NCBI RefSeq assembly: GCF_008806975.1
Contig: NZ_CP031728.1
Span: 1-64,000, forward strand
Direction of reading: 5' to 3'
Source of the DNA: Cellvibrio sp. KY-GH-1
GTDB taxonomy: Bacteria > Pseudomonadota > Gammaproteobacteria > Pseudomonadales > Cellvibrionaceae
Length of the DNA stretch: 64,000 nucleotides
A model generated the notes under the pieces. The model was not told the DNA's origin and did no database searches. It saw nothing but the letters and a program-made list of their open reading frames with translations. Made by a program: the position numbers and the translations under genes. This document shows positions 2,087-47,992 of this stretch, piece after piece. Position 1 is the first letter of the stretch. Each line of letters begins with the position of its first letter.

Positions 2087-2347
2087 TCGGCCTGCGTGTT
2101 GATCCTGCCAACAAACGCCTGATCCCGGTTTTCTGCTTTGAATTTGCTGACTCATTGACTTGGGCTTGGCACTTAAAGCACCTTTTTATCGAAACCCTTC
2201 TGCGTCCCGTCATTATTCTTCTAAAGCAATAAAAAAATTTCACTTATTGTCCTTTAGTCCAATGGCACAAGTTTCATCAGTAACTAGACTGCAAATCATA
2301 TCCTTATTGTGATTCGATTCACATTTCAATATGACCCGGAGTCAGTT
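2087..2347 (+). other. Non-coding leader upstream of the giant adhesin
   Basis: These 261 bases carry no convincing gene. They become AT-rich after about 2,220. The sequence before the ATG at 2,348 contains a plausible ribosome site (CCGGAG, about 2,336-2,341). No promoter with both good hexamers and no terminator was found, so the adhesin may have its own weak or regulated promoter or be read from the upstream operon. Confidence 0.4.
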
Positions 2348-29574: not shown

Positions 29575-29597
29575 GCATTCACCTCTCCACCCTTGTG

Positions 29598-30056: not shown

Positions 30057-32197
30057 AAGCTTGCCTTCTCCTTGATAACTTGCGGCCAGGTAAATGTGAA
30101 GCGGCAGCCTCGCCCTTGGGACGATAGTTTGATGGAGCCCCCATAGGCTTCGACCAATTTTTTAATGAGCGCAAGCCCCATGCCGCTGCCTTCCAGTTCG
30201 TCGCGTGGTTTAAGCGTTTGAAACATGCCAAAGACACGCTCCTGGAATTTTTCGGGAATGCCGGGGCCATCGTCACTTACGCTAATTTCGTAAAATTTAT
30301 CGCGAATGTTGGTACATTCCAAACGAATCACGCCTTGGTCGAGATCATGGTGTTTAATGGCATTAGAAAATAAATTGCGTATTACTTGTTCGAAGGGGGT
30401 GCTTAGCGTCTCAAACGTCGGGAGATTTTCGCCCAGCTCCAAACGTAATCCCGCTTTGGTGTTTTGAATTTCAAACAACTCAGCAGCCATCTGTGCCAGA
30501 TTGATGACGGTAAATTTGCCGTCAGTTTTGCCGGCCCGATAAAAAATCAGCATATCGTCCAGGAGCTTTTCCATGCGCTGAATGCGATTCCGCAACATCT
30601 GTGTGTGTTTACCGACCTCGGCGAATTCTTTTTCAGCGAGATCTTCTTCAATCCATGTGGATAGTTGGGCAATACCGCGTAATGGTGACTTTAGATCGTG
30701 CGAGGCTACGTAGGCAAAGGTTTCCAATTCCTTATTGGTTTGCGCCAAACGACTATTGCTGGACTCCAGCTCCGTTTGATGTTGGATTAGTTGTTGGGCG
30801 CTTCGCTTTCTTGCCTCGATATTTTCTGCAAAGACCACTAGCGTTTTTGCCATGCTTCCCATTTCATGGGGAGCGTCGTGAAAGGGAATTAAAACGGAGG
30901 AATCGCCTCTCGCTAATTGCTCCATGGTATTGCGGATGGTTTGCAATTGGCCATTTAGGCTGCGAGTAATTATTGCGGCGACCAAGAAGCCCAAGATAAG
31001 AAAGCCGCTCAAGATAAACAGCATTAAATAGCCCGCATTGTCGGTAATACCTTTGACCTGTTTATTCAATGTCTGTACACGATCTTGTTGTTGTTGAATC
31101 AACTCTTCGCATTGATGTTCTATCTCGAGTGTAAGGCTTTGTGTATCAACGAGCATTTTCTCGCGATAGAGTTCGACGTTGCCCGCAACTAATTGTGCAT
31201 AGGTATCGCTTACCGCCTTTTGCCAAAGGTTAAATGTTGCGTGCAGTTTTCTTGGTTTATCGTCACCTAATTTTCTGCTGATGAGGTCTATCTCCTGTGT
31301 AACGGCAAAGCGAGTGTCTATCAGGCTTTCAGGGATATTAAATTCATTTGCCAAGTGAGGGTTTACCGCAATGTCTTTCAATTGCCTGTTCAGCTTGTTG
31401 ATATGTCCCTTGAGTCGTAGCAGGGCGTTATTCACCTGGATCGGCTCTTCGTAGAGTTGCTGGGTGAAAAGTGCTACAGAATTGATTTGCGATGAACCTA
31501 TAGAGCCAATTCCAATAAACAGCACGCTCAGAAATACGTAGCCGGTGGCCAAGCGGCTGAATACACTCAAACGATTGAAGGCAAGTGTCGCAGCGCTAAA
31601 GCGCAAGAAAATCAAACCGGAAACAAACAACACAAATCCAATTGCGGATTGGGGAGCCATTTTTATGCCTAGCCACGCGGAGTCGGGTGTGACTCCAAAA
31701 CGTTGCCCTATTACTGCGGTGAGCGTAAGGAACAATATAAGAGCACAAAGCAACATGGCGATAACCATTTTTACACCCAGCTCGCTAAAGCTCAGTAAAA
31801 TTGCTACGCCGGAGATTATAAAAACGAGGCTTGTTGTGGGTGAGCTTGGCTGTAAACGAAGAGGCGGTTCACTCAGAAAAGTGATAAACCACGTTGAAGT
31901 ATTGATTGGTGTATTAGAAAACAGATCTAGTAGTGTTAATAAGCCTATTGAAACTACCACCAGGCTTGCGAGTAATGTTAAACGCCATTGCCGAATAGTT
32001 ATTGCATACAACCCGATGCCGCAGCCCAAGAACCCAATTGCCGTGTTATAAGCCATGAGGGTGGCGTAAGGGTATATGCTTTTAAATAGGTGCGGGCTGT
32101 GCCAGCTAATTAATACGAGCATACCTAGCGCGCACAGCAACAACGCTATGGCATTGGGAGCCAAGTGGCGATATAAGTTGGAGTTGGTGCTGTTCAT
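30053..32197 (-). CDS. Membrane sensor histidine kinase
   Basis: I start it at the ATG at 32,197 (714 aa), directly before the membrane domain. A longer frame to 32,290 exists without a better ribosome site. Seven or more hydrophobic helices in the first 230 residues form an integral-membrane sensor. A second, extracytoplasmic helical region (about 250-390), another membrane helix and a HAMP-like segment follow. HisKA has the phospho-acceptor in FAYVASHDLKSPLRG. The ATPase domain has NLFSNAIKHH, DDGPGIPEKF and GSGMGLAL boxes. It is first in a three-gene operon with four-base overlaps. The stimulus is unknown. Confidence 0.92.
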   Translation of the reverse strand: MNSTNSNLYRHLAPNAIALLLCALGMLVLISWHSPHLFKSIYPYATLMAYNTAIGFLGCGIGLYAITIRQWRLTLLASLVVVSIGLLTLLDLFSNTPINTSTWFITFLSEPPLRLQPSSPTTSLVFIISGVAILLSFSELGVKMVIAMLLCALILFLTLTAVIGQRFGVTPDSAWLGIKMAPQSAIGFVLFVSGLIFLRFSAATLAFNRLSVFSRLATGYVFLSVLFIGIGSIGSSQINSVALFTQQLYEEPIQVNNALLRLKGHINKLNRQLKDIAVNPHLANEFNIPESLIDTRFAVTQEIDLISRKLGDDKPRKLHATFNLWQKAVSDTYAQLVAGNVELYREKMLVDTQSLTLEIEHQCEELIQQQQDRVQTLNKQVKGITDNAGYLMLFILSGFLILGFLVAAIITRSLNGQLQTIRNTMEQLARGDSSVLIPFHDAPHEMGSMAKTLVVFAENIEARKRSAQQLIQHQTELESSNSRLAQTNKELETFAYVASHDLKSPLRGIAQLSTWIEEDLAEKEFAEVGKHTQMLRNRIQRMEKLLDDMLIFYRAGKTDGKFTVINLAQMAAELFEIQNTKAGLRLELGENLPTFETLSTPFEQVIRNLFSNAIKHHDLDQGVIRLECTNIRDKFYEISVSDDGPGIPEKFQERVFGMFQTLKPRDELEGSGMGLALIKKLVEAYGGSIKLSSQGRGCRFTFTWPQVIKEKASL

Positions 32198-32402
32198 ATC
32201 TCGTTCAATCCATAACCCTTGAGTTTGCACCTCCCGGAACAAGCGGCAATCAGCTACCCCTACACCTGTAGCTCCCAGTGGTGACAGCAAGTCTGAGTGT
32301 AGTTTCTACTTAGCAAAAATTCTTATAAAGTCGCGGCTTGCGCTGAAATAATTAGCCTGCTGAGTTATTTATATTTTTAAGTCATATATGAAAAGGCGTC
32401 AT

Positions 32403-32830: not shown

Positions 32831-34711
32831 ATGCAGTCGTTAAAGGCCTTTAAACTCTGGTTGAGCATGCAATGCCAAATGCTGGGCAACGTGCAAGCCG
32901 CCATATTGGTGCAGTGCGCGCCGGAAAATCCCCAAATTTTGGCGAAATGGCCCAGTGCTGATATCGATTCAACGCTCTTGCGCGGTGCCATACAACCTGT
33001 GCTGGAAAAGCAACGTTTGCATTTACAGCTTCTGGACTCGCAGCACTATTTATTAGGCTATCCATTGGTAATTGATGGTCAGCAGTGGGGAGTGTTGGCA
33101 TGTACACTGGCACTGACGGATAAAAAAGAACTGCCATCAATCCTCAAATGGTTAAAGCTGGGGCAGTTTTGGCTGCAATTTATTTTACATCTCACCGCCA
33201 ACGATTCTTCGCCAAACGACAGGGCATCAATTGAAACGGCGCCGCTTGAACCTGATCAAACGGCGGTTGCATCAGCGTCCCAAAGCAATGTTGCATCTGC
33301 AAACGGGCAGATCGCTATTCCGCCATTAAACGAAGCCCTGAATACGGCGCTGGTACAAATCACTGCAAGTTTATTGAAAGAAAACTCCCTGCAAGAAACC
33401 GGGATTACGCTGGTTAATTTGCTGGCGGGCCTATTACAAGCGACGCGTGTGAGCCTTGGGGTGTTGGATGGGCAGGGGAAAAACTTGCAGTTGGAGGCAG
33501 TTTCTTTTTCTGCAAATTTTGACAAGCGCACACAAGCGATGCTGGCGATCAGGGAGGCGATGGCAGAGGCGATCGATCAGGGTATGCGCATCCACTGTAC
33601 GTCCAATGAGGATGAACAACCTGCGGGGGTGTCCTCACAGATCAAGCAAGCACACCAACATTTGCTACATGGCCAACAATTGCAGAGTGTCAGCAGTTTT
33701 TTATTGCGCAAGGGCGAGCGCATTTTGGGTGCGATAACTATCGAATTGGATAGGCGCTCATTAACGACCGATCAGGAATTGTTTGCGCAGCAAGCGGCGC
33801 ATTCAGCCGCGGCGATTATGTTGTTGCAGCAACAGGCGGCAGCTGGTTTGTGGCAAGGCTTAAAGCACAGCCTGGTGGCGCGGTTACAAAGGCTGTTGGG
33901 GCCGGATTCCTGGCGGGGCAAACTGATTGCAATGGCGGCGGCGGCATTTGTTGTCGCCTTATTTGTGCCCGTCACCTATCACTTGTCTGCCGATGCGAAT
34001 TTGCAAACCACGGAAAAACATTTGGTGGTTTCCCCGCAAGACGCCTATTTGGGAAAAATTTCTGCACGTCCTGGTGATGCTGTTAAACAAGGCGCATTAC
34101 TCGCACAATTAAATGATGAAGATTTGCGTTTGGAGCGACGCAAAATTGCAAGCCAGGCGCAACAGTATCGGCAGGCCTATGATTCGGCGTTGGCAAATGG
34201 CAATCGTGTAGAGGCCGCAATTGCCAGCGCTCAATTGGATCAAGCGACTATTCAAGTGCAATTGCTCGATCAGCAATTGGCGCGCACGCAATTGCTCGCA
34301 CCGGTCGATGGCATAATTGTGTCTGATGATATTGCGCAAACACAGGGCGCACCTGTAAAGCAGGGTGATGTTCTATTTGAAATTGCGGCAGGACAGAGCT
34401 ATCGGGTGCAGTTGTTTGTGGATGAGCGCGATATAGCCCAAGTCCAACCTGGACAATCCGGTGCGTTAAAGCTGAGCAGTTTGCCAACGGAGGTATTTAA
34501 TTTGCGCGTCAAACTGATTACCCCCATTAGTGAGGTGCGTGAAGGGCGTAATTATTTTCGCGTTGAATTGGAAATCGATAACACGCCGGAACAAAATGCG
34601 TTGCTGCGCCCGGGTATGACCGGTACCGGTAAAGTACAGATCGGCACGCGTGCATTGGGTTGGATCTGGTTTCACGATCTGTGGCATTGGCTGCGGTTGA
34701 ACCTCTGGTGA
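32831..34711 (+). CDS. GAF-domain/HlyD fusion membrane adaptor
   Basis: The protein has 626 aa. The N-terminal 350 residues look cytoplasmic. They contain a first degenerate sensory region (about 1-120), a low-complexity linker (about 125-160) and a GAF domain (about 170-335; LQATRVSLGVLDGQG, RILGAITIELDRR). One membrane helix lies at about 364-385. A periplasmic HlyD-type region follows (about 390-600), with two lipoyl halves (ISARPGDAVKQGALLAQL; LLAPVDGIIVSDD) around a short coiled coil. Ordinary HlyD proteins lack a cytoplasmic sensor of this size. It is the first gene of the cluster with the M50 fusion, another HlyD protein and the LEPR-XLL giant protein. Confidence 0.85.
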   Translation: MQSLKAFKLWLSMQCQMLGNVQAAILVQCAPENPQILAKWPSADIDSTLLRGAIQPVLEKQRLHLQLLDSQHYLLGYPLVIDGQQWGVLACTLALTDKKELPSILKWLKLGQFWLQFILHLTANDSSPNDRASIETAPLEPDQTAVASASQSNVASANGQIAIPPLNEALNTALVQITASLLKENSLQETGITLVNLLAGLLQATRVSLGVLDGQGKNLQLEAVSFSANFDKRTQAMLAIREAMAEAIDQGMRIHCTSNEDEQPAGVSSQIKQAHQHLLHGQQLQSVSSFLLRKGERILGAITIELDRRSLTTDQELFAQQAAHSAAAIMLLQQQAAAGLWQGLKHSLVARLQRLLGPDSWRGKLIAMAAAAFVVALFVPVTYHLSADANLQTTEKHLVVSPQDAYLGKISARPGDAVKQGALLAQLNDEDLRLERRKIASQAQQYRQAYDSALANGNRVEAAIASAQLDQATIQVQLLDQQLARTQLLAPVDGIIVSDDIAQTQGAPVKQGDVLFEIAAGQSYRVQLFVDERDIAQVQPGQSGALKLSSLPTEVFNLRVKLITPISEVREGRNYFRVELEIDNTPEQNALLRPGMTGTGKVQIGTRALGWIWFHDLWHWLRLNLW

Positions 34712-34715
34712 TGCC

Positions 34716-36875
34716 ATGAGTGACTCAGCCACCAATAATCCTATCTGGCAGCGTCTGGAATCCCTGCGCCCCTCGCTGCCGCGCCATATTCATATCCAGC
34801 GCCGCGATTACAACAACGAGCGTTGGTATTTATTGCAAGATAAAAGCAACGGCCGCTTCCATCGTTTAACACCTTCCGCCTGGCGTTTGATTTCAGCGAT
34901 GGACGGGCGCAATTCACTGGCCCAGATTTTAACGGCGGCCAACAACCCGGCATTTTATGAAACGGAAGATGACGTTCCTACGCGTGAGGATTTAATTCAC
35001 CTGCTGCAATATTTGCACGTCGCCGATTTATTGGTGTGCGATATGCCACCCAATACTCAGGAATTATTTGCGCGGCGCGAACAGAAAAAGCAGCAGCGCT
35101 GGGTGCGGTTGCTAATGAACCCGCTCACCTGGAATATCCCGCTCGGCAATCCCGATTCACTGTTGGATAAATTAATGCCATTTGCGCGTTTGCTGGCGAC
35201 GCGCACTATGGGTGTTATCTGGTTAATGGTTGTCGGTTATGCATTGCTGCAGGCGGGTGCACACTGGCAACAACTCACGCACGGGCAATTGGATCGTGTG
35301 CTTTCTCCCGGAAATTTATTTTTGCTCTGGTTGACTTATCCTTTTTTTAAAGTCTTACACGAGCTGGGGCACGGATTATTTACCAAAGTCTGGGGCGGGC
35401 AGGTGAATGATTGCGGTTTGGTGTTTGTGGTGGGAACACCTCTACCTTATGTCGATGCCAGCGCGGCTACCGGCTTTTACGCCAAGCGTCAGCGCTTGAT
35501 GGTGAGCGCGGCGGGCATGGCCGTGGAATTATTTTTAGCGGCGCTCGCATTGCTATTGTGGGTGCAATTATCCGCGGGTTTCCTACGCGATTTTCTCTAC
35601 AACATTATTTTAATTGGTGGCGTGTCCACGTTATTTTTTAATGGTAATCCGCTCATGCGTTTTGATGGTTACCATTTGTTGACTGATGCGTTTGATTTGC
35701 CAAATTTGGCAACTCGTGCCAATCAGCAGGTGAGTTATTTATTGCGTCGCTATGCTTACGGCATCATTAATGTTTTTTCGCCGGCAAGTTCAATGCGCGA
35801 GGCCTGGTTGTTGGCGGGCTACAGTATTGCTGCGTTTATTTATCGCGTGTTTACACTGTTCTTTATTATTTTGCTGGTCGCCAGTTATTTCCCGGTACTG
35901 GGGTTGGTGATTGGGGCCTGGTTGATATTTTTCCAATTGGTGTGGCCAGGGTTAAAGGCCTTGTGTTTTCTTGCGCAAGACAAACAACTGGCCAATCAAC
36001 GCAAACGGGCATGGGCGGTCACCAGTGCTGGCAGTGCAGTGGTTTTGCTGGTGATACTGGCGGTGCCCTTACCGCAATCCACGTCTGCGGAAGCTGTGCT
36101 CTGGTTGCCCGATGATGCGCGAGTGAAAGTTGAGTCAAGCGGTGAAGTGGCGGAGTTGTTGGTGGAAAATGGAAGTCAAGTTGTTGCGGGTCAGGAGTTG
36201 GTGCGTTTGCACAATCCCGTTTTGATTGCACAGCTTGCAGTGCAGCAGGCGCGGTTGCGGGAATACGATGCTCGCTATCAGCAGGCGTGGGTGGATGATC
36301 GCGCGCAGGCGCAGATGTTTGATCAGGATATCGCTGCCATTAAAGCGGAAATTGCACTGCTGCAAGCACGGGTCGTCAATCTGGTGGTTCGCAGCCCTTC
36401 CGATGGTGTGTTGCGCATTACTCGCACCTACTATTTGCCGGGCAGCTATCTGCATCAGGGCGACGAATGGGCGGTAATAGAAAAGCCCGGTAGTGTTCGG
36501 GTACGCGCTGCGCTGTTGCAGGAGGAGATTGGTCTGGTGCAGCAGGCAACCCGCCGCGTGAGCCTTGGGTTTGCAAGCGCCCCCACCCAGGGGCGTGAAG
36601 CCAGCCTGGTGTCAGGAGAGGTAATCGCTAGCCAGCAGTTGCCCAACCCGGTCCTGGGGACCCAGGGCGGAGGTCGTATTGCGGTAGATGCCACGCAGCC
36701 GGGCGGTGTGCAAGTGAAAGAAAAAGTCTTTCTGGTGGATCTCGCGGTACAGGATTTTGTGCAGAGCGGGCATTTCGGCGAGCGAGCCTATGTGAAATTT
36801 CATCATCCCGCAGAGCCCTTGGCGTTGCGTTGGTACAGGCATTTGCAGCAAGTTTTTATCCGCCATTTTTCGTAA
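34716..36875 (+). CDS. PqqD-like / M50 site-2 protease-like / HlyD fusion membrane protein
   Basis: The protein has 719 aa and begins four bases after the previous stop. Residues about 25-120 resemble a PqqD-type peptide-binding winged helix (RWYLLQDKSNGRFHRLTPSAW). The polytopic membrane region (about 155-445) has the zinc motif HELGH at 215-219 and a third-ligand motif NPLMRFDGYH with Asp317, both intact for an S2P/M50 intramembrane metalloprotease. After a final helix (about 430-448) comes a periplasmic HlyD-like part (about 460-700) with lipoyl halves VAELLVENGSQVVAGQEL and VRSPSDGVLRI. The combination suggests that substrate recognition, cleavage and export adaptation are in one chain. 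The likely substrate is the giant protein encoded 1.3 kb downstream, but this is inference. Confidence 0.88.
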   Translation: MSDSATNNPIWQRLESLRPSLPRHIHIQRRDYNNERWYLLQDKSNGRFHRLTPSAWRLISAMDGRNSLAQILTAANNPAFYETEDDVPTREDLIHLLQYLHVADLLVCDMPPNTQELFARREQKKQQRWVRLLMNPLTWNIPLGNPDSLLDKLMPFARLLATRTMGVIWLMVVGYALLQAGAHWQQLTHGQLDRVLSPGNLFLLWLTYPFFKVLHELGHGLFTKVWGGQVNDCGLVFVVGTPLPYVDASAATGFYAKRQRLMVSAAGMAVELFLAALALLLWVQLSAGFLRDFLYNIILIGGVSTLFFNGNPLMRFDGYHLLTDAFDLPNLATRANQQVSYLLRRYAYGIINVFSPASSMREAWLLAGYSIAAFIYRVFTLFFIILLVASYFPVLGLVIGAWLIFFQLVWPGLKALCFLAQDKQLANQRKRAWAVTSAGSAVVLLVILAVPLPQSTSAEAVLWLPDDARVKVESSGEVAELLVENGSQVVAGQELVRLHNPVLIAQLAVQQARLREYDARYQQAWVDDRAQAQMFDQDIAAIKAEIALLQARVVNLVVRSPSDGVLRITRTYYLPGSYLHQGDEWAVIEKPGSVRVRAALLQEEIGLVQQATRRVSLGFASAPTQGREASLVSGEVIASQQLPNPVLGTQGGGRIAVDATQPGGVQVKEKVFLVDLAVQDFVQSGHFGERAYVKFHHPAEPLALRWYRHLQQVFIRHFS

Positions 36876-36945
36876 TGGTTTTTTTAATCTATAGTGTTAC
36901 CAATTAATTGTTATAGTCCCCTCACGTTTTTATATCGAGTTAACT

Positions 36946-37794
36946 ATGTTCAGAGTCTCAGGATTTTCATTGCTGGCTTTTTTGTTCAGTAATGAACTAT
37001 TCGCCCAGACACAAGAGCCGGCGCAGCTCAATTGCCGTATTGAGCCCTCGGTGACGGTAGAAATGAGTAGTGCTGTTGAAGGTGTGATCAGCGAAGTATT
37101 GGTAGATAAAAATGATGTAGTAAAAAAGGGGGATGTGTTAGCTCGCCTGGATGCCGGTTTGGAATCGGCTACTGCAGAGTTGCGTCGGGTGCAGTCGGAA
37201 TTAACCAGCGATGTACAGGCGCAGCAGCTGGCGGTGGAATTTAGTCAGCGGGCGTTGACGCGGGTAAAAGATTTATACGACAAAAAAGCAGCATCCTTTT
37301 CCGAATTGGACAAACACAAAACGGAACACGCCATCGCCCAACAACAGTTGCAGCAGGCGCTGGATCGCAAACGTCAGGCTGAATTGGAATATAAACGTGC
37401 ATTGGCGGATTTGCAGCGCCGTACCTTGGTCAGCCCAATAGATGGTGTTGTGGTTGAGCGTATGAAAGAGCCGGGTGAGCACATCGATTTTGAGCCAGTG
37501 TTAAAGCTGGCCCAGTTGGATCCACTGCGCGTGGAAGTGTTTGCACCCGCGAGCTTGTATGGAAAAGTGAAGCCGGGCATTAAGGCGAGCGTTATTCCAG
37601 AATTAGGTGGCGATAGCCGCGCTTACGCTGCGGAGGTTATATTGGTTGATCAAGTCATTGATGGGCCCAGTAATACTTTCGGTATACGTTTGTCGTTTGC
37701 GAATCCGGGGAATCGCCTGCCCAGTGGCTTGAAATGTCGCGTTACCTTTGAGGGGGTTACCTTAAACTTGCTAGACCCGCGCGCATTGCCCTAA
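36946..37794 (+). CDS. HlyD-family periplasmic adaptor
   Basis: The protein has 282 aa. A signal peptide or N-terminal anchor covers about the first 20 residues (cleavage probably after FAQ). The lipoyl half VEGVISEVLVDKNDVVKKGD (about 45-65) precedes a coiled-coil hairpin (about 75-155). The second lipoyl half (LVSPIDGVVVERMKEPGEHI) and a short beta domain end the protein. It is shorter than type I secretion adaptors. It is the third HlyD-type chain in the cluster and lies directly upstream of the LEPR-XLL giant gene. No ABC or RND transporter is adjacent. Confidence 0.87.
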   Translation: MFRVSGFSLLAFLFSNELFAQTQEPAQLNCRIEPSVTVEMSSAVEGVISEVLVDKNDVVKKGDVLARLDAGLESATAELRRVQSELTSDVQAQQLAVEFSQRALTRVKDLYDKKAASFSELDKHKTEHAIAQQQLQQALDRKRQAELEYKRALADLQRRTLVSPIDGVVVERMKEPGEHIDFEPVLKLAQLDPLRVEVFAPASLYGKVKPGIKASVIPELGGDSRAYAAEVILVDQVIDGPSNTFGIRLSFANPGNRLPSGLKCRVTFEGVTLNLLDPRALP

Positions 37795-38130
37795 AACGCT
37801 GCGCGCAATACGAATAACAATAATTCATTACAACGAAACTCAAGGTTATTACCTGAATCTAGATTATTTTTTTATGTGGGCCTGATTCAGCGAAATTTTG
37901 TGCCAAAATTATCAAATTGAGAAATTTTGATAACTACTAATAACTGATAAATAAGACTTTACGAGTGCTAAACCGAGGATTTTTGATCGGTTTACCTTCC
38001 GGCTGTTTCACTCAGTGCTCGCTATGGTACGGCGAGCAAAGCGCCGGTAACACCAAAGGATGTAGTTGGTTTTCACCAGTCCTTTAACCCAATGCACCCG
38101 TAAAAGTGCGTGTAAGTAACAGCGAAACTT
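37795..38130 (+). other. 336-bp leader upstream of the LEPR-XLL giant gene
   Basis: No gene is seen. An AT-rich inverted repeat lies at about 37,909-37,933 (TTATCAAATT / AATTTTGATAA). Further down, a hairpin GCTCGC / GCGAGC lies at about 38,018-38,037 and another AAAGGA / TCCTTT at about 38,055-38,085. The leader looks structured and could be regulatory. It does not match a riboswitch that I can name. Confidence 0.45.
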
Positions 38131-41100
38131 ATGTCGAAAGCTCCGCGTCATCGCCGTCCGTTAATTGAAGCACTGGAACCGCGCTTACTCTTTTCCGCCA
38201 CAGCGGATATTGCTGTGTTCGATGACGGCCATTCCGATGGTCAGTACCTCGCCTATGCCGCGCAAGATGTCGATCTGGTGAGTATCTATAAACCTGATGA
38301 TGCGTTGGATATACAACCGCTCATAATGCAGGACGCTACCCCCGACATTCCTCAAATTGACGCTGTGATTTTTGTCGATACCGCGGTCGATAATTATCAG
38401 CTGCTGGTTAACGATATAGAAAAAGCGCTGAACGATCAGTCAATCGCGATTGTTTATCTGGATTCCACCAAAGATGGTCTGACCCAAATCAGCGATTACC
38501 TCGCCGGTGTCAGTGGCATTTCCGCCGTACATATTATTTCCCACGGGGTCGCGGGCAGCGTGCAATTGGGAACGCAAGTGCTCAACGAAAATAATATTGC
38601 GCAATATCAGCAAGCACTTGGTAACTGGAAAAATTCGCTTGATGACGATGCGGACATTTTACTGTACGGATGCGATGTAGCAGCCAATCAAAGTGGTGTG
38701 AATTTACTGCGTCAATTAAGCGATCTCACCGGTGCCGATGTCGCTGCCAGTAATGATTTAACCGGTAATGCCGCCAACGCCGATTGGGAGTTGGAAGAAC
38801 GTGTCGGTCAGATTGAAACCACCAGTATTTTCTCTTCCACCCAAAATATGGAATGGCAGGGCGTTCTTGCCGACGTTGTGCATTTGTATTCCGGTGTCGC
38901 CACCAATGAACAGGCAATTCCTACCGGTGGATATGTCATGCAAGGTGTGCAGTTAACCTCATCGCACACGGTGGATCGTATTCAGGTAATGCTGGCGAAT
39001 CACGGCACCAGTTCCGCAACAGTGCAAGTCTTCGTGCATGAGCATAGCTACAATGGAACTGTAGTTGCTTCGGCATCAGTTAATACTGCATCGCTGGGAA
39101 GCTCATTGGGCACTGTTAATTTTGATTTTGCGCAGACCACGTTTAATGCTTACACCGTTTATTGGATTGAGTTCAGAACCAACAATGGGGCAGACAATTT
39201 AGTTGGCATTGGTTACATAAATAGCAACGTTATCGCCAGTGAGTTTGTGGTTAATGGCAGCGGGGACGGTAACAAGGACATGTCTATCGCACTGGTGGAT
39301 GTTCAAAACCATGCTCCCACCGTTGCGAATGCAATTCCCAACCAAACAGCGACTGAAGAAGCGTTGTTCAGTTATACCTTTGCCGCGAACACTTTTAGCG
39401 ATCAGGACGGCGATACGCTGACGTACACCGCCACCTTATCCAATGGTAATCCTTTGCCGCCATGGTTGAGTTTTAATGCGGCGACCCGCACTTTCAGCGG
39501 CGTTCCCGATGACGGGGATGTGGGAACTATTTCCGTTAAAGTAACCGCGAATGATGGTAACGGCGGCACTATTGATGACACTTTTGATTTGGTTGTTAAC
39601 AACGTTAACGATAATCCCTTTTTAAACATTCCGGTGCCCAATCAAAATGCTACAGAAGATGCCGCATTTAATTATACTTTTCCGGCAAATACCTTTGGCG
39701 ATGGCGACTTGGGTGCAAGTTTTACCTACACCGCAACCTTGGCGGGTGGTGGAGCCTTACCCGCGTGGTTAAATTTTGATTCGGCGACACGTACGTTCAG
39801 CGGTACACCGGCGAATGGTGATGTAGGAACTATTTCCGTCAAGTTGACCGCTGATGATGGTGCCGGCGGCACTGCAAATGATACGTTTGATATTGTTGTC
39901 GCCAACACCAATGATGCACCTACTGTTGCCAATGCCATTCCCAACCAAACAGCAACAGAAAACGCACTGTTTAATTACACCTTTGCCATCAACACATTCA
40001 ATGATCAGGATGTTGGCAATACCCTGACCTATACGGCGCAGCTCGCTGGTGGGGGCGCATTACCCGCGTGGCTTTCTTTTGATGGCGCCACGCGTACATT
40101 TAATGGAACGCCATCCAATGGCGATGTAGGCAATATCACCATTCAAGTGATTGCCAATGATGGCACTACAACCGTGTCTGATTTTTTTGATTTGGATGTG
40201 CAGAATGTCGGCTCCTCCAATGTGGTTTATGAAACCTCGGGCCCTTCGACTGATACGCAAATTATTGCGGCGGGCGTGCCTTTCTTTCAGAGCTTTTTTC
40301 ACGACAGTGTTGGCGCAACCTACACCATAGATTCTATCGTGCTGCAGCTGGTGAAAGACCCTTCAGCAGCGGCGCAAACTATTACGGTTACCTTATTATC
40401 GGGGGCCTTTAATGGTACGGTAGTGGATTCGGCCACGGTTTCGTCGGCGGACATAAGTACAACACTTGCGTGGAAAGCGTTTGATTTTACCAACACGGTT
40501 CTTACTGATAATCAGCTGTATTTTATTAAAATTGAATCCACCAGTAATGATGGCCAGGTAAAAGCTGCAATTCACAATAGCAATGTTTATAACAATGGAT
40601 CGTTTCATAGTAGTACAGGTGTTGCAGATACTGGTCGCGATGTTGCTTTTCAAATTTCCAGCGGCGCCAATATTGATCCGGTAATTGTTAACCCGATTCC
40701 AAACCAAAATGCCACTGAAGATGCTGCATTTAATTTTCAATTTGCAGCCAATACTTTTAATGATGCGGATGTGGGCGATACGCTCACCTACACAGCAACC
40801 ATGGCGGATGGCAGCGCGTTGCCGGCGTGGTTAAGTTTTAATGCCGCCACCCGGACATTTTCGGGTACGCCCACCAACGGTGATGTGGGAACTATTTCTG
40901 TTAAAGTCACCGCCGATGATGGCAACGGCGGAACGCCAGCAACCGATACCTTTGATTTGGTTGTCGCCAATAGCAATGACGCGCCTACTATTGCAAATGC
41001 TATTCCCAATCAAAATGCCACTGAAGATTCAGTATTTAATTTTACCTTTGCCGCGAATACATTTGCCGATCAGGATGTGGGAAACACGCTTAGTTACTCC

Positions 41101-44100
41101 GCCCAATTGGCGGGTGGCGGTGCCTTACCGGCATGGTTAAGTTTTGATTCTGCCACGCGCACATTTAGCGGTACACCTACCAACGCGTTTGTGGGAACTG
41201 TATCAATCGATGTCATTGCCAGCGACGGCAATGGCGGTACAGTCACCGACACCTTCAATATAGTTGTTGCCAACACTAATGATGCGCCTACTGTTGCCAA
41301 TGCAATTACCAATCAAAATGCGACAGAAGATGCTGCATTTAATTTTCAATTCGCGGCCAATACATTTAGTGATCAGGATCTAGGTGATACCTTAACCTAT
41401 TCTGCGCAATTAGCCGGGGGCGGGGCGTTGCCATCTTGGTTAAGTTTCAACGCCGCAACGCGTACTTTTAGCGGCACTCCCGCGAACGGAGATGTAGGTA
41501 GTTTCTCGGTTGATGTTACGGCCAGTGATGGAAATGGGGGTTCGGTTACCGATACCTTTAGCGTCACGGTAGCCAATGTAAACGACGCGCCCTCGGTGAG
41601 TATTGCGTTAACGGATTACTACACCAGTGAGCAGACAGCGGTTAATTTGCATGGAACGGGCATATCCATTTCAGATGTGGATACGAACAGTGTTACTGTC
41701 ACTATCGCTGGTCCAGCACCACACAGTGAACTAACGGCAAATGTGGGTACGACCGGTGTTAGTATTTTTTCCGGTAACGGTACACCCAGTTTGGTGATCA
41801 CCGGTACGCTCACCCAGGTGAATGATTTCCTCGCGGGAAATAATGGCGGCACCTTAACGTATCGTCTGGCGGGCGACACACCTATGTCGACTGCGACATT
41901 AACCATCACTGCCAATGATGGCGCGTTAACGGGTAACGACACGGCGACAATTAATATTTCTGCTGTTAATGATGCGCCGGTAAATTCTGTTCCGGGCGCG
42001 CAAGTTACAACTGAAGATACCGCATTGGTATTTAGTACAGGCAATAGCAATCAAATTCAAATCGCTGATCCTGATGCTGCTGCAGGTGCTGTGCAGGTCA
42101 CACTATCAGTGACCAATGGCACGCTCACACTTGCCGGTACAACCGGTTTAAGTTTTACCACGGGTGATGGAACCGCTGATTCAACGCTGGTGTTTACCGG
42201 TACGCTTGCGGATATTAATACCGCGCTGGCGACACTCACCTACAACCCCACCGCAAATTACAATGGTGCGGCGGTATTATCTCTTACTACCAGTGACCAA
42301 GGTAATACCGGTTCCGGTGGAACCCTGACGGATACGGATACGGTCAATATTACTGTTAACGCCGGGAATGATGCGCCCACCGTCGCCAACGCTATCCCGA
42401 ACCAAAATGCCACAGAAGATGCAGCCTTTAATTTCCAATTTGCGGCCAATGCCTTTGCCGATGTTGATGCTGGTGCAACACTCACTTATTCAGCACAATT
42501 AAATGGCGGCGGTGCATTGCCAGCCTGGTTAAGTTTTAACGCGGCTACACGCACATTCAGTGGTACACCGGCGAATGGTGATGTAGGAACCATTTCGATT
42601 GATGTGATTGCCGATGACGGTAACGGCGGTACAGTCACTGATACATTCAATATTGTGGTGGGCAATGCGAATGATGCGCCCACAGTGGCCAACGCGATTC
42701 CCAATCAAAATGCGACTGAAGATGCGGCATTTAATTTTCAATTTGCCGCGAATACGTTTGCTGATCCCGATGTTGGCGATACGCTCACATACTCTGCGCA
42801 ACTTGCCGGTGGTGGCGCTTTACCCGCTTGGTTAAGTTTCGATCCGGTTACCCGCACTTTCAGCGGCACACCGTTAAATGCCAACGTGGGCACAGTCTCG
42901 ATTGATGTCATTGCCAATGATGGTAATGGCGGCACGGTGACAGATACGTTCGACATTGTGGTTGCCAATACTAACGATGCGCCCACCGTCGCCAACGCCA
43001 TTCCCAATCAAAATGCGACTGAGGATGCAGCATTCAATTTCCAATTTGCGGCTAACACTTTTGCCGATGTTGATGTAGGTGCAACACTCACTTATTCAGC
43101 ACAATTAAATGGCGGCGGTGCATTGCCAGCTTGGTTAAGTTTTAACGCGGCTACACGCACATTCAGTGGTACACCGGCGAATGGTGATGTAGGAACCATT
43201 TCGATTGATGTGATTGCCGATGACGGTAACGGCGGTACAGTCACTGATACATTCAATATTGTGGTGGGCAATGCGAATGATGCGCCCACAGTGGCCAACG
43301 CGATTCCCAATCAAAATGCGACTGAAGATGCGGCATTTAATTTTCAATTTGCCGCAAATACGTTTGCTGATCCCGATGTTGGCGATACGCTCACATACTC
43401 GGCGCAACTTGCCGGTGGCGGCGCTTTACCCGCGTGGTTAAGTTTCGACCCGGTTACCCGCACTTTCAGCGGCACACCGTTAAATGCCAACGTAGGCACA
43501 GTCTCGATTGATGTCATTGCCAATGATGGTAATGGCGGCACGGTGACAGATACGTTCGACATTGTGGTTGCCAATACCAATGATGCCCCGACTGTTGCAA
43601 ATGCAATTCCTGACCGTACCGCAACCGAAAATGCAGCATTCAATTTCCAATTTGCTGCCAACACATTTGCGGATGTGGATGCTGGTGCAACACTCACGTA
43701 TTCAGTGCAATTAAATGGCGGCGGTGCGTTACCCGCGTGGTTAAGTTTTAATGCGGCAACGCGCACATTTAGTGGAACACCGACTAATGCAGATTTGGGT
43801 AGCGTATCTATTGATGTCATTGCTGATGATGGAAATGGCGGCACTGTTACTGATACTTTCACCATCACCGTAAACGATGTGAATGATGCGCCCACAGTTG
43901 CTAACGCGATCCCCGATCAAAATGCTACCGAAGATGCGGCTTTTAATTTTCAATTTGCGGCGAATACGTTTGCCGACATTGATGTGGGTAATGTGCTGAC
44001 ATATTCTGCCCAAGTTGCCGGTGGGGGCGCATTGCCAGTATGGTTGAGTTTTGATCCTGCTACTCGCACGTTCAGCGGTACTCCTGTTAATGCAGATGTA

Positions 44101-46437
44101 GGTACCTTGTCGATTGACGTCATTGCCGACGATGGCAACGGTGGTACAGTGACGGATACGTTCGACATTGTTATTGCCAATACCAACGACGCCCCTACGG
44201 TCGCCAATCCAATTGCAGATCAAACTGCCACTGAAAGTAATGCATTTAATTTTCAATTTCCTGCTAACACATTTGCTGACGTGGATGCAGGTGCGACGCT
44301 AACTTATAGTGCGCAACTAGCGGGTGGCGGAGCGCTGCCGGCATGGCTAAGTTTTGATGCAATTACGCGTACATTTAGTGGAACACCAGGCACCCCAAAT
44401 GTTGGCGCCGTCGCTATTGATGTGATTGCCAGCGATGGTAATGGCGGCAGCGTTACCGATACTTTCAGTGTGACTGTGAACGCATTGCCTGCCAATTTAC
44501 CTCCCACAGTTCAGGCGGGGATAAGTGATCAATCCGTTAACGAAGATTCCAACTTTTCGTTCACCATTCCTGCAAATGCGTTTGCCGATGCCGAAGGCGA
44601 TTCATTGAGTTATTCAGCGCAATTAGCGGGCGGTGGTGCTTTGCCCTCATGGTTGAGTTTTGATGCATCGACGGGCACTTTTTTCGGAACGCCGGGCAAT
44701 GGCGATGTCGGTGTAGTTAACCTGCAAGTCAGTGTGAATGACGGCAATGGTGGCAGCATCAGCGATACGTTTACCATTACCGTGGTTAATACCAACGATG
44801 CACCAACATTGATTGCCCCAAGTGTCAATCCTGTTGCACATGAAGATCAGCCCTTTAACCTTAGTTTCCCATTGACGATGTTTAACGATATCGATGTGGG
44901 GGATTCACTGAGTTACAGCGCGCAATTGGCGAATGGGCAAGCGTTGCCCACGTGGTTACATTTTGATGCTGACACCTTAACGTTTACCGGCACCCCAGGT
45001 AATAGCGATGTTGGTAATCTCAGTATTCAATTGATTGCCAGCGATGGTGAAGCCAGTGTGAACTTCCAGTTTGCGCTGCAGGTAGAAGCTGTGAATGACG
45101 CACCTGTTGCCGGTGCGCCAATTACTATCAATAACATTGAAGATGCGCCCGGTGACCAACTGGATTTATTTTCTATCTTCAGCGATGAAGAAACTCCTGC
45201 GAGTCAATTGCAATATACCGTTGTGAGCAACTCCAATGCTGCCCTGGTTTCCAGTGCAACCGTAGATGCCAATACTGGAAAATTAATGTTTAGCTACGGT
45301 GCTAATCAATTTGGCGTCAGTGATTTAATTATTCGCGCACAGGACACTAGTGGCGCGACTGTTGAAACCGCAGTACGAATAAACATTGCTTCGGTTAATG
45401 ATGTTCCTGTATCCGCTGGCATTAACGACATTAACGTTAATGCGGGTGCTCAACCTCAACAAATAGATTTGCGTAAAATATTTTCTGACATTGAAAATGG
45501 CACTGCGCTGCAATATTCGTTAATTGCCAATACCAATACCGCCGTGGTTCCCAGTGTGCAATGGAATCAGACCACTGGCATGATGACAATTTCATTTGCT
45601 GCCAGCAGTGGCGGTGAAACCTTTATTACTCTGCGTGCGCAAGACAACGAAGGTGCCTGGGTTGACACGCGCTTTAAAGTAAATGTCACGGCGCCAGTGG
45701 TTGTTCCTGACCCGGAAATTCCTTCCAAACCTCCGGTAACGCCGCCCACGGTACCACCGGTTACCGAAGTGCCAACAACGCCGCCGGTAACACCGCCCAC
45801 TACACCACCCACAGATGGGAATGGCGAAAACCCGGGTTCAGGTAACAATGGTGAGGATGTCGGCCTGCCAGAAACGGGGATAGATACCAATTTACCGGGA
45901 ACGTCTGGCCAGGGGGTGCCTCCGGTCTCTGATTCGAATGATGCTCGCGATAATGTCGCCTTGCCCAATGATAAATCCAGTCGTGATTATGCGCGTTTTG
46001 AAGCAGACCTGGAGTCGCAAAATATACCGGTTACAACACTGACGGCGTCTTCATCGCTCGTAAGTCTGATTGCAACGGATGATGGTTTTGCCCCTTGGGA
46101 GGCAGCTGATTTTGACAACGAAGTACGCCGTATTCGCGATCAAATGGATGTGGCTATGGAAGAGGAGCAGGATCGTCGTGCGGTAGTGGCGGGGCTGACT
46201 TTTTCAGTGACGACAGGCTTGCTGGTTTGGTCTTTGCGCGCCAGCAGTCTATTGTTAACCCTGATGTCTATGTTGCCTTTATGGCGCGGTTTGGATCCAT
46301 TGCCCATTCTTGACGAAGTGAATAAGCGCAAGAAAGAGTTGGAACAACAGCGTAAAGACCGTGCGCGAGAAGATAAGAGCTCCAAAGAAGTAGGGTATTT
46401 GTTCGACCATGCGCAACAAAAAAATCCCGGCCAATAA
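38131..46437 (+). CDS. Giant LEPR-XLL protein with DUF4347 and tandem Ig-like repeats
   Basis: The protein has 2,768 aa. The N-terminus carries the LEPR-XLL signature (ALEPRLLFSA, residues 14-23) after a basic stretch. A DUF4347 domain follows at about 75-245 (IISHGVAGSVQLG, ILLYGCDVA). Two non-repeat beta-rich domains lie at about 248-390 and 693-845. About 15 He_PIG-type Ig repeats (IPNQ.ATE...F.F start; ALP.WLSF..ATRTFSGTP middle) and about four cadherin-like domains fill most of the rest. A Pro/Thr-rich spacer (about 2,530-2,590) leads to a hydrophobic tail at about 2,683-2,727 and a basic, charged, helical C-terminus. There are no RTX repeats and no type I secretion signal. The flanking M50 and HlyD genes probably serve it. 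Confidence 0.9.
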   Translation: MSKAPRHRRPLIEALEPRLLFSATADIAVFDDGHSDGQYLAYAAQDVDLVSIYKPDDALDIQPLIMQDATPDIPQIDAVIFVDTAVDNYQLLVNDIEKALNDQSIAIVYLDSTKDGLTQISDYLAGVSGISAVHIISHGVAGSVQLGTQVLNENNIAQYQQALGNWKNSLDDDADILLYGCDVAANQSGVNLLRQLSDLTGADVAASNDLTGNAANADWELEERVGQIETTSIFSSTQNMEWQGVLADVVHLYSGVATNEQAIPTGGYVMQGVQLTSSHTVDRIQVMLANHGTSSATVQVFVHEHSYNGTVVASASVNTASLGSSLGTVNFDFAQTTFNAYTVYWIEFRTNNGADNLVGIGYINSNVIASEFVVNGSGDGNKDMSIALVDVQNHAPTVANAIPNQTATEEALFSYTFAANTFSDQDGDTLTYTATLSNGNPLPPWLSFNAATRTFSGVPDDGDVGTISVKVTANDGNGGTIDDTFDLVVNNVNDNPFLNIPVPNQNATEDAAFNYTFPANTFGDGDLGASFTYTATLAGGGALPAWLNFDSATRTFSGTPANGDVGTISVKLTADDGAGGTANDTFDIVVANTNDAPTVANAIPNQTATENALFNYTFAINTFNDQDVGNTLTYTAQLAGGGALPAWLSFDGATRTFNGTPSNGDVGNITIQVIANDGTTTVSDFFDLDVQNVGSSNVVYETSGPSTDTQIIAAGVPFFQSFFHDSVGATYTIDSIVLQLVKDPSAAAQTITVTLLSGAFNGTVVDSATVSSADISTTLAWKAFDFTNTVLTDNQLYFIKIESTSNDGQVKAAIHNSNVYNNGSFHSSTGVADTGRDVAFQISSGANIDPVIVNPIPNQNATEDAAFNFQFAANTFNDADVGDTLTYTATMADGSALPAWLSFNAATRTFSGTPTNGDVGTISVKVTADDGNGGTPATDTFDLVVANSNDAPTIANAIPNQNATEDSVFNFTFAANTFADQDVGNTLSYSAQLAGGGALPAWLSFDSATRTFSGTPTNAFVGTVSIDVIASDGNGGTVTDTFNIVVANTNDAPTVANAITNQNATEDAAFNFQFAANTFSDQDLGDTLTYSAQLAGGGALPSWLSFNAATRTFSGTPANGDVGSFSVDVTASDGNGGSVTDTFSVTVANVNDAPSVSIALTDYYTSEQTAVNLHGTGISISDVDTNSVTVTIAGPAPHSELTANVGTTGVSIFSGNGTPSLVITGTLTQVNDFLAGNNGGTLTYRLAGDTPMSTATLTITANDGALTGNDTATINISAVNDAPVNSVPGAQVTTEDTALVFSTGNSNQIQIADPDAAAGAVQVTLSVTNGTLTLAGTTGLSFTTGDGTADSTLVFTGTLADINTALATLTYNPTANYNGAAVLSLTTSDQGNTGSGGTLTDTDTVNITVNAGNDAPTVANAIPNQNATEDAAFNFQFAANAFADVDAGATLTYSAQLNGGGALPAWLSFNAATRTFSGTPANGDVGTISIDVIADDGNGGTVTDTFNIVVGNANDAPTVANAIPNQNATEDAAFNFQFAANTFADPDVGDTLTYSAQLAGGGALPAWLSFDPVTRTFSGTPLNANVGTVSIDVIANDGNGGTVTDTFDIVVANTNDAPTVANAIPNQNATEDAAFNFQFAANTFADVDVGATLTYSAQLNGGGALPAWLSFNAATRTFSGTPANGDVGTISIDVIADDGNGGTVTDTFNIVVGNANDAPTVANAIPNQNATEDAAFNFQFAANTFADPDVGDTLTYSAQLAGGGALPAWLSFDPVTRTFSGTPLNANVGTVSIDVIANDGNGGTVTDTFDIVVANTNDAPTVANAIPDRTATENAAFNFQFAANTFADVDAGATLTYSVQLNGGGALPAWLSFNAATRTFSGTPTNADLGSVSIDVIADDGNGGTVTDTFTITVNDVNDAPTVANAIPDQNATEDAAFNFQFAANTFADIDVGNVLTYSAQVAGGGALPVWLSFDPATRTFSGTPVNADVGTLSIDVIADDGNGGTVTDTFDIVIANTNDAPTVANPIADQTATESNAFNFQFPANTFADVDAGATLTYSAQLAGGGALPAWLSFDAITRTFSGTPGTPNVGAVAIDVIASDGNGGSVTDTFSVTVNALPANLPPTVQAGISDQSVNEDSNFSFTIPANAFADAEGDSLSYSAQLAGGGALPSWLSFDASTGTFFGTPGNGDVGVVNLQVSVNDGNGGSISDTFTITVVNTNDAPTLIAPSVNPVAHEDQPFNLSFPLTMFNDIDVGDSLSYSAQLANGQALPTWLHFDADTLTFTGTPGNSDVGNLSIQLIASDGEASVNFQFALQVEAVNDAPVAGAPITINNIEDAPGDQLDLFSIFSDEETPASQLQYTVVSNSNAALVSSATVDANTGKLMFSYGANQFGVSDLIIRAQDTSGATVETAVRINIASVNDVPVSAGINDINVNAGAQPQQIDLRKIFSDIENGTALQYSLIANTNTAVVPSVQWNQTTGMMTISFAASSGGETFITLRAQDNEGAWVDTRFKVNVTAPVVVPDPEIPSKPPVTPPTVPPVTEVPTTPPVTPPTTPPTDGNGENPGSGNNGEDVGLPETGIDTNLPGTSGQGVPPVSDSNDARDNVALPNDKSSRDYARFEADLESQNIPVTTLTASSSLVSLIATDDGFAPWEAADFDNEVRRIRDQMDVAMEEEQDRRAVVAGLTFSVTTGLLVWSLRASSLLLTLMSMLPLWRGLDPLPILDEVNKRKKELEQQRKDRAREDKSSKEVGYLFDHAQQKNPGQ
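42367..43578 (+). repeat. Near-identical 606-bp tandem duplication inside the LEPR-XLL gene
   Basis: Copies 42,367-42,972 and 42,973-43,578 (202 codons, two Ig-like domains each) differ at only a few synonymous or conservative positions. The next unit, from 43,579, is clearly diverged. The duplication keeps the reading frame and must be recent. Confidence 0.92.
46180..46310 (+). other. C-terminal hydrophobic tail of the LEPR-XLL protein
   Basis: The codons encode two short hydrophobic segments (about 2,684-2,700 and 2,705-2,717) followed by WRGLDPLPIL and a Lys/Glu-rich helix. This would anchor the C-terminus in the inner membrane with the last 45 residues cytoplasmic. It is a plausible target for the M50 protease encoded upstream. 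Confidence 0.7.
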
Positions 46438-46474
46438 TGTTGGTTTTGCTGAGTTTTCTGGTTAAGGAAAATAA

Positions 46475-47992
46475 ATGTTAGGTTTTACTCCAGCAGTTCG
46501 TTTAAGTTTGGGTTTGGTGATTTTAACTATCTCCATCCTGATTTTGGCACAGGCCATCGGGCTTGCGCCCGGTGCTGAGCGTCAACAATTGGAAGTCCGC
46601 AAGCGTTTGGCTGAAACCCTGGCATCGCAAGTCAGTGTGGCTATTATGCGCGGTGATGAATTACTGCTGCAGTATTTGCTGGAGTCATCGGTAGAGCGCA
46701 ACCCGGAAATTTTATCAGTCGCTGTGCGCCGCAATGATGGTGTAATTGTTGCGCAAACCAAATTGCATTCCAAGAACTGGGCCAAGGCGAAAGCTAACGA
46801 ATCTACACCCACACATATCCGTTTTCCCATCATGCTCAACGGTGCCAAGCGTGCTGAATTTGAATTGAGCTTCGAGCCATTGTTAAGCGATAGTCATCCG
46901 ATTTTTAAATTGCCGACATTTATATTGTTGGTGATCTTTGTATCACTCAGTGGCTTTGTTGGTTATTGGTTTTACATTAAACGCGCGTTAAAACATTTGG
47001 ATCCCAGTGCGGTAGTGCCTGCCCGGGTACGCAACGCATTAAATATTCTGGCGGAAGGTGTGTTAATTCTGGATAGGCGCGAGCAAATCGTATTGGCTAA
47101 TAATTCGATGATTGAGCACCTGCAGCGTACCGAACAATCACTCATGGGAAAAAAGGCCAGCAGTCTTGGCTGGTTTTTAGATCCCAAACAAGAAGCGCGC
47201 GAATATCCCTGGCTGAAAGCAATTGGTAGCGGCGTCAAGCAAACCGGTGTACGAGTACTCCTACCCGACGCCAGCAATAGCGATAAAGACACGATTTTTC
47301 AGGTAAATGCGGTGCCCATTCTGGACCCTAAAGGCGCGAGCCAAGGCACCATTGCGGTATTTGAAGATATTACTGAACTGGAAACCAAGAGTCGTTTGTT
47401 AGAGGAAATGATCCAGCAGTTGGCCGCAACACAAGTAGCAATTGAAAACAAAAATAAGGAGCTGACTTTTCTCGCAACGCGCGATCCGCTTACTAACTGT
47501 TACAACCGTCGTGCGCTCTACGAGCATCTAAGCAGTAAATTTGATGGTGCTCGCACTACTGATGCTGAGTTCAGTTGCATCATGGCCGATATCGATTTCT
47601 TCAAAAAAGTAAACGATACCTATGGCCATGCGGCGGGCGATGAAGTGATTAAAATGGCTGCAAACAGTTTGCGCGAAGTAGTGCGAGATATGGATATGGT
47701 AGCGCGGTTTGGCGGTGAAGAATATTGCGTAATCTTGCCTGGGGCGCCATTGGAACAAGCGCAGATGATTGCGGAGCGCTGCCGCCAGAAAATTGAAGAG
47801 AAAGTAACAAATGGAATTAAAGTGACGGGCAGCTTTGGTGTGACATCCATCCGCATGGGGGCAGTCACTGCCAACCAACTTATCCAGCAGGCGGATGAGG
47901 CTCTTTACTATTCCAAACAGCATGGCCGCAATCAGGTTACTTGCTGGCAGCCGGATATGAAAACCATTATTACTGATACCCAGCATCATTAA
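46475..47992 (+). CDS. Membrane diguanylate cyclase with PAS domain
   Basis: The protein has 505 aa. Membrane helices at about 9-28 and 145-167 flank a periplasmic sensor domain. A PAS domain (about 185-310; ILAEGVLILDRREQIVLANN) and a short coiled coil lead to a GGDEF domain (about 325-490). The active site reads GGEEY, a variant of GGEEF likely to be active. The upstream RDMD five residues before it is an intact inhibitory site. It starts 37 bases after the LEPR-XLL stop in the same direction, so it is probably co-transcribed and may tie c-di-GMP to the surface protein. Confidence 0.92.
   Translation: MLGFTPAVRLSLGLVILTISILILAQAIGLAPGAERQQLEVRKRLAETLASQVSVAIMRGDELLLQYLLESSVERNPEILSVAVRRNDGVIVAQTKLHSKNWAKAKANESTPTHIRFPIMLNGAKRAEFELSFEPLLSDSHPIFKLPTFILLVIFVSLSGFVGYWFYIKRALKHLDPSAVVPARVRNALNILAEGVLILDRREQIVLANNSMIEHLQRTEQSLMGKKASSLGWFLDPKQEAREYPWLKAIGSGVKQTGVRVLLPDASNSDKDTIFQVNAVPILDPKGASQGTIAVFEDITELETKSRLLEEMIQQLAATQVAIENKNKELTFLATRDPLTNCYNRRALYEHLSSKFDGARTTDAEFSCIMADIDFFKKVNDTYGHAAGDEVIKMAANSLREVVRDMDMVARFGGEEYCVILPGAPLEQAQMIAERCRQKIEEKVTNGIKVTGSFGVTSIRMGAVTANQLIQQADEALYYSKQHGRNQVTCWQPDMKTIITDTQHH

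Follow-up and report, generated by a model that had tools for sequence, protein, structure and literature searches.

Type I secretion systems and tripartite pumps use HlyD-family adaptors with TolC-type channels and, among their cargo, giant immunoglobulin (Ig)-repeat proteins, and the accessory Sec system of Gram-positive bacteria includes a second SecA (SecA2) encoded beside very large repetitive proteins. The LapA/LapD/LapG system combines an envelope-held giant repeat protein with a cyclic di-GMP (c-di-GMP) enzyme and a protease, the daptide metalloprotease (NCBIfam model NF041824) has a PqqD-like plus M50 architecture, and PA0256/Tce1 of Pseudomonas aeruginosa is a stand-alone type VI cargo with His-Gly and Tyr-Gly-Cys motifs. 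PqqD-like domains are known from other systems as binders of leader peptides, and M50 proteases cut in membranes. How proteins of several thousand residues that lack type I signals are exported and displayed is, to our knowledge, an open problem. Here we analyzed a cluster of five open reading frames, comprising three HlyD-type proteins (Pfam), a giant protein with an LEPR-XLL leader and a diguanylate cyclase, in Cellvibrio sp. KY-GH-1 (NZ_CP031728.1, positions 1 to 64,000). This 64,000-nucleotide stretch, called the window hereafter, opens a genome of 5.76 Mb on a single contig, whose proteins have their closest named relatives in Cellvibrio.

The core of this locus is conserved and linked to LEPR-XLL giants across Pseudomonadota and in certain genomes from other phyla. 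In most members one of its HlyD-family adaptors bears a GAF domain; a second is a fusion with PqqD-like and M50 parts (M50-HlyD), and there is usually a third. The features of the cluster, in window coordinates, are:

32831 to 34711, plus strand: GAF-HlyD adaptor, 626 residues (Pfam GAF and HlyD)
34716 to 36875, plus strand: PqqD-like / M50 intramembrane metalloprotease / HlyD fusion, 719 residues (Pfam HlyD domains and motifs)
34836 to 35030, plus strand: PqqD-like (leader-binding type) N-terminal domain of the fusion, residues 41-105 (13 bits, matches in the family)
35358 to 35372, plus strand: HELGH zinc site (H215, E216, H219), invariant in 67/67 aligned sequences
35646 to 35675, plus strand: NPLMRFDGYH, second M50 motif (P312, D317 and Y319 invariant in 67/67)
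36946 to 37794, plus strand: HlyD/RND_mfp-type periplasmic adaptor, 282 residues (Pfam HlyD; TIGR01730 120.4 bits)
38131 to 46437, plus strand: giant LEPR-XLL / DUF4347 / He_PIG-repeat protein, 2,768 residues (Pfam, NCBIfam)
38161 to 38202, plus strand: LEPR-XLL leader motif of the giant, residues 11-24, within RRPLIEALEPRLLFSA (NF012209 17.7 bits, cut-off 17)
38365 to 38868, plus strand: DUF4347 domain with His138 (His-Gly) and Cys181 (Gly-Cys), a dyad invariant in 21/21 aligned sequences
46015 to 46434, plus strand: C-terminal anchor module, one predicted transmembrane segment (residues 2684-2702) followed by a charged tail (hydrophobicity, profile)
46475 to 47992, plus strand: membrane diguanylate cyclase, 505 residues (Pfam GGDEF with PAS)

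An earlier note, made from the letters alone, had described this cluster, and its description was borne out. All five frames were present in a single direction at the positions it gave, with agreeing Pfam domains. The giant begins with the LEPR-XLL signature, lacks a Pfam RTX match and ends in one hydrophobic stretch, both motifs of an intact M50 site are in place, and neither an ABC ATPase nor an RND pump was matched by Pfam among the cluster proteins. Nor was either matched among 20 further open reading frames scanned, a part of those in the window; the Pfam scan of the cluster proteins gave no MFS match.

Compared with type I systems and tripartite pumps, with which it shares the adaptors, a giant Ig-repeat cargo and, in some relatives, a TolC-type channel, the locus thus lacks any ABC, RND or MFS match, but has a PqqD-like/M50 protease fused to an adaptor and a cargo with an N-terminal LEPR-XLL leader. 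Most relatives resemble the accessory Sec system in encoding a second SecA, yet the loci are Gram-negative, the paralogue is shorter (about 660 residues) and, in the two scanned, falls below the cut-offs of SecA2 models, and the window's own genome has no such paralogue. As in the Lap system, a giant that would be held in the envelope is accompanied by an adjoining c-di-GMP enzyme and a protease; here, however, the anchor is C-terminal and hydrophobic, the protease is of the M50 type and not LapG, and the window carries a separate Lap-type set. The fusion resembles the daptide metalloprotease over most of that model, but it scores below the cut-off, carries HlyD and is linked to giants instead of short peptides. 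The DUF4347 domain, which shares the His-Gly and Tyr-Gly-Cys motifs of PA0256/Tce1 in a weak PDB match, differs from that protein in lying behind the leader of a giant. The tests run place the locus outside the type I, RND and SecA2 systems. No description of it, or of its combination of parts, was found among the titles and abstract starts listed in searches of the open literature, and public annotation labels the components one by one (‘PqqD family peptide modification chaperone’, or ‘peptidase M50’ beside ‘preprotein translocase subunit SecA’).

The link between adaptors and giants was evaluated in 397 Pseudomonadota genomes drawn evenly across the phylum, among them that of the window. With the alignment at E <= 1e-20, M50-HlyD turned up in 84 genomes; LEPR-XLL (E <= 0.01, with at most 21 candidates scored in some genomes) was detected in 48, both being present in 47 (Fisher's test on genomes, 47/1/37/312, odds ratio 396, p = 1.3e-36; by genus, 31/1/17/183, p = 4e-25). 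The co-occurrence that the earlier note had set beforehand as a check was therefore seen in 47 of 48 LEPR genomes, and in the sole exception (G274) the LEPR match lay within a 64-residue frame. Both were on one contig in 31 of the 48, within 10 kb in 28 of these 31 (giant ends being estimated from open-frame lengths), and co-directional in all 28. LEPR-XLL was present in 34 of 38 genomes with an M50-HlyD match of at least 200 bits versus 13 of 46 with weaker ones (hand count). The association of the adaptor genes with LEPR-XLL giants is strong; a linkage through lifestyle alone was rejected, since adjacency speaks against it.

The same arrangement was followed in 79 loci obtained by scanning named genomes with the M50-HlyD alignment (best 80 of 91 relatives; individual loci and contigs are given L numbers). 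They came from Gamma-, Alpha- and Betaproteobacteria, Thermodesulfobacteriota, Nitrospinota, Deferribacterota, Myxococcota and a phycisphaeral planctomycete. A GAF-HlyD homologue lay directly upstream of M50-HlyD in 74/74 loci with enough flank, a third HlyD was detected downstream by similarity in 46/66, and 54/64 had either a giant frame or a match to the leader, DUF4347 or the anchor, a crude count in which long antisense frames can be included. For 50 of the 79 loci, which come from 48 genomes, LEPR-XLL exceeded its cut-off in 37 of these genomes, including Thermodesulfobacteriota (L038, L073, L084). As a side observation, relatives occurred on 27 of 72,556 plasmid records.

With moderate confidence, we interpret the locus as an apparatus dedicated to the export or maturation of LEPR-XLL giants; that it is a secretion system, and every step of the following mechanism, we infer. 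The giant would use the Sec route to cross the inner membrane, with the help of a SecA paralogue where there is one and, in the window's genome, of its only SecA. The PqqD-like domain would bind the LEPR-XLL leader, the M50 site would cut at or near it, and the HlyD parts would form a periplasmic conduit. In three lineages, the Cellvibrionaceae-type among them, the C-terminal anchor would keep the giant in the inner membrane, and the adjacent diguanylate cyclase may tie its display to c-di-GMP. DUF4347, predicted to be a cysteine protease, may process the very giant that carries it.

The M50-HlyD fusion was aligned over 67 sequences (the window protein and 66 of 86 full-length relatives), in all of which the zinc-site residues H215, E216, H219, N309, P312 and D317 are invariant, pointing to proteolysis under selection; a motif listing gave HExxH in 86/86 full-length relatives. 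A PDB sequence search with this alignment gave no match over the M50 part and matched the HlyD half only (MacA, MexA and others, profile positions 427-658). In the 626-residue adaptor, GAF spans residues 187-328, followed by one predicted transmembrane segment (365-383) and the HlyD part, and GAF was matched in 47/57 aligned homologues. The 282-residue HlyD protein starts with a hydrophobic signal-like stretch, and its TIGR01730 score is over the cut-off.

Over the PqqD and M50 parts, the closest NCBIfam model was the daptide metalloprotease (121.2 bits in the window protein, 171.5 bits in that of L050, cut-off 300). This match favours a different interpretation, in which the adaptors and M50 form an efflux or daptide-like maturation unit for a small modified peptide and the linkage to giants reflects shared regulation or lifestyle, as do the 37 of 84 M50-HlyD genomes without LEPR giants and, in L198, a sulfotransferase gene (10039-10920) located between those for M50-HlyD and the giant. 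The tight co-directional linkage to giants and the lack of any recurring peptide-modification gene among the selected neighbours scanned make such a unit very improbable in our judgement.

The leader pattern over 83 relatives was R-R-P-L-I-E-A-L-E-P-R-L-L-F-S-A; the leaders, mostly Cellvibrio-type, were picked by an LEPR-like pattern, so that the core is conserved by choice. Since the leader is far commoner than the anchor, the fusion carries a PqqD-like domain and the daptide model matches it, the M50 cut was placed at or near the leader, with a likelihood that we put slightly above even; cleavage of something else is unlikely, and cleavage at the C-terminal anchor slightly more so.

Release by cutting of the anchor, after entry into the periplasm by another route, was the mechanism proposed in the earlier note. 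In its favour, M50 proteases are established to cut in membranes, the anchor is common to the three LEPR giants of the genome, and it was found with M50-HlyD in three lineages. The anchor profile (seed: the window and seven of the eleven matched loci) matched L023, L029, L030, L032, L036, L203, L058, L068, L074, L091 and L093, and the module is common to 60 proteins whose named members are mostly Cellvibrio; its charged tail is presumably cytoplasmic. Terminal hydrophobicity was surveyed in 49 frames, comprising 10 anchored ones, 9 set aside (N-runs in L023 and L033; frames taken to be unrelated, antisense or the M50 gene in L063, L075, L087, L096, one in L066 and two in L076) and 30 others, not every one of these 30 shown with LEPR. 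None of the 30 complete frames matched the anchor model, and 29 lacked a hydrophobic stretch over their last 260 residues, the exception being L052. An M50 site invariant in 67/67 members is thus set against an anchor confined to few lineages, so that anchor cutting was not supported as a general mechanism and is rather improbable as the function of the protease, though it may occur in the anchored lineages.

A diguanylate cyclase gene followed the anchored giant of the locus in 10/10 visible cases (window, L029, L030, L032, L036, L203 as seen in L208, L058, L068, L074 and L093; L023 and L091 did not enter this count), and no cyclase match was listed at the loci of the 30 unanchored frames. 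This pattern suggests c-di-GMP control of giant display, in effect like that of LapA/LapD.

The other part of the earlier proposal, entry into the periplasm by another route, fits a compact SecA paralogue (about 660 residues) encoded at most 0.9 kb after M50-HlyD in 61/79 loci (58/76 by a stricter rule). This gene was present in 61/65 loci outside the range L023-L036 and in 0/14 within it; among the four outside without it, L092 and L101 end at contig edges, while L055 and L076 do not. SecA_DEAD, P-loop_SecA and SecA_PP_bind were matched in both full-length paralogues scanned, so the nucleotide-binding and preprotein-crosslinking parts are retained, and in two alignments the paralogue stops near where the housekeeping SecA runs some 250 to 300 residues further. 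In seven compact proteins (e.g., L040, 12280-14283) a short motif like LLAFSGxxE recurs at the end, and for this reason they do not look like simple truncations. The same two paralogues scored below the cut-offs of the SecA2 models (TIGR04397, 537.6 and 540 bits vs. 1085; TIGR03714, 487.2 and 449.9 vs. 930; TIGR04221, 410.3 and 458.1 vs. 725) and likewise of the housekeeping SecA models. In an M50 tree (quick tree, midpoint root), six Cellvibrionaceae-type rows formed a clade (SH-aLRT 100) among mostly SecA-bearing rows, adjoining a Burkholderiales/Rhodocyclaceae group (support 86). Loss is the simplest reading of this nesting, and the compact SecA was probably lost in the Cellvibrionaceae-type clade. 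In L207, a SapC-family protein (256.6 bits, 6202-7047) is encoded between M50-HlyD and the SecA paralogue.

Genes for candidate outer-membrane partners were seen in a minority of loci. OEP/TolC-type genes were found on a distant branch of the tree (L198, L205, L199 and, by similarity, L204), where the stretches fetched gave no SecA match; no such gene was seen in L202 and L206 of the same branch, whose stretches are cut by fetch or contig ends. The OEP/TolC type also occurred in L200 (outside the tree), L213 (by Pfam), and L047 and L094 (by similarity). A ShlB-type barrel with POTRA was found in L215 and a close relative in L214, and these ShlB/FhaC-type two-partner barrels lie beside an M50-HlyD/SecA-like locus (L215, 13488-15560; L214, 1798-3876).

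Several OEP genes lie elsewhere in the window's genome, one of them near the far contig end (5758377-5759543), and the window also holds a LapA-type set, about 20 kb from the cluster:

45 to 1472: HlyD protein, at the left end of the window
2309 to 8989: RTX Ig-repeat giant, preceded by a LuxR-type regulator
9474 to 11378: LapD-like protein (Pfam LapD_MoxY_N)
11420 to 12124: LapG-like protein, peptidase C93

The labels LapA, LapD and LapG are our own assumption for these genes, apart from the Pfam name LapD_MoxY_N. Given this set and the OEP gene near the far contig end, the giant might be exported by a type I system encoded elsewhere, for instance the LapA-type one, with the locus only trimming or sensing it, and RTX repeats in the giant frame of L048 would accord with this. 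As the giant of the window has no RTX match and LEPR giants adjoin the M50-HlyD locus in the sample, this division of labour seems quite unlikely to us. The LapD- and LapG-like genes adjoin the RTX giant of the window. LEPR-XLL was met in two papers of the library searched; a passage of one, PMC10868602, mentions that a Vibrio has a novel giant, some 8,000 residues long, combining LEPR-XLL and RTX parts, and that passage does not mention the present locus.

Besides the leader, the giant of the window comprises DUF4347 (177.6 bits) and 15 He_PIG stretches (Pfam). In the part of PMC13323088 that concerns it, PA0256/Tce1 is reported to be a putative cysteine protease, its dyad aligning with the one in the cysteine protease domain of a clostridial toxin; the DUF4347 label for this protein stems from the corresponding part of PMC8262886 and a PDB chain name, not from that of PMC13323088. 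A PDB search with DUF4347 gave weak matches only, among them 9qpe_G, a chain named DUF4347 (E = 0.075); designed barrels, with the best E-value (0.0055), were treated as chance matches. DUF4347 is predicted to resemble a (clan CD-type) cysteine protease, and the invariant His/Cys dyad, together with the report on Tce1, makes self-processing of the giant possible. A fourth DUF4347 protein of the genome (L013, 1853-8896, minus strand) has, as read, a Sec-type signal in place of LEPR; by eye, its frame ends in a sorting-anchor-like segment followed by an apparent second signal peptide and a barrel protein in the same frame.

Several observations weigh against a dedicated apparatus of the proposed kind. 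Besides the 37 M50-HlyD genomes without LEPR-XLL at E <= 0.01, 11 of the 48 genomes behind loci had none over the cut-off, so members of the adaptor family also occur without detectable LEPR giants and may have other substrates or roles; incomplete genomes, diverged leaders and unscored candidates may explain part of these misses. The leader is possibly an ordinary weak Sec signal, moderately hydrophobic, its 12-residue hydrophobicity maximum being 0.74 to 2.21 (84 leaders, commonest 1.86) versus 2.27 for the Sec-type signal of L013. DUF4347 is absent from the giant of L194, which had no Pfam match at all. No SecA paralogue lies at the window locus and the genome has one SecA only, and the paralogue itself is not always an active motor, judging from the missing Walker A in L059 and L067 and an apparent degenerate frame in L196. 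A channel gene was found in only 10 of 101 loci, and none in the window, by a similarity search with six queries that can miss distant channels. No cyclase lies beside the other two anchored giants of the genome (L011, L012). As for the domain assignments, M50 (15.5 bits) and PqqD (13 bits) were both under their Pfam cut-offs in the 719-residue protein; the assignment is secured because relatives match (M50 in 63/67 and PqqD in 40/67 aligned members at E <= 0.01; PqqD 27.4 bits, over the cut-off, in the L050 homologue) and the zinc-site residues are invariant.

Within the genome, a single copy each of M50-HlyD and GAF-HlyD was found, together with three LEPR-XLL and DUF4347 giants; the two outside the window (L011, L012) have the same N-terminal leader and C-terminal anchor module as the window giant, so that one apparatus could serve all three. 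A similar-looking two-gene pair, a helicase-like protein and a small partner, was seen by eye near both (L011, 7612-9614; L012, 635-2564), as if a larger block had been duplicated. Divergent signalling genes adjoin the cluster (27817-32290, minus strand), encoding a histidine kinase, a response regulator and a response regulator-GGDEF-EAL protein, and loci such as L023 and L033 have a GGDEF match at about the corresponding place. In the 336-base leader between the HlyD and giant genes (37795-38130), which includes a short hairpin, some stretches are conserved among Cellvibrio relatives. No Rfam family was found in the window, and matches far below gathering scores led us to drop a riboswitch in this leader; its hairpin, with no compensatory change among 7 sequences, was dropped as well.

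The locus may be read more broadly as an undescribed Gram-negative export pathway, with LEPR-XLL as a new class of export leader, a PqqD-like reader, an M50 cutter in an HlyD conduit, Sec and, in most lineages, a dedicated compact SecA to drive inner-membrane crossing, and interchangeable TolC- or ShlB-type partners, a proposal to which we give somewhat less than an even chance. If true, its cargo would span sizes from about 2,000 residues to frames of 19,427 residues. The findings suggest what LEPR-XLL and the PqqD/M50/HlyD fusion, two signatures so far unexplained, may be for, and a locus this widespread makes the question of giant-protein export testable in ordinary environmental bacteria.

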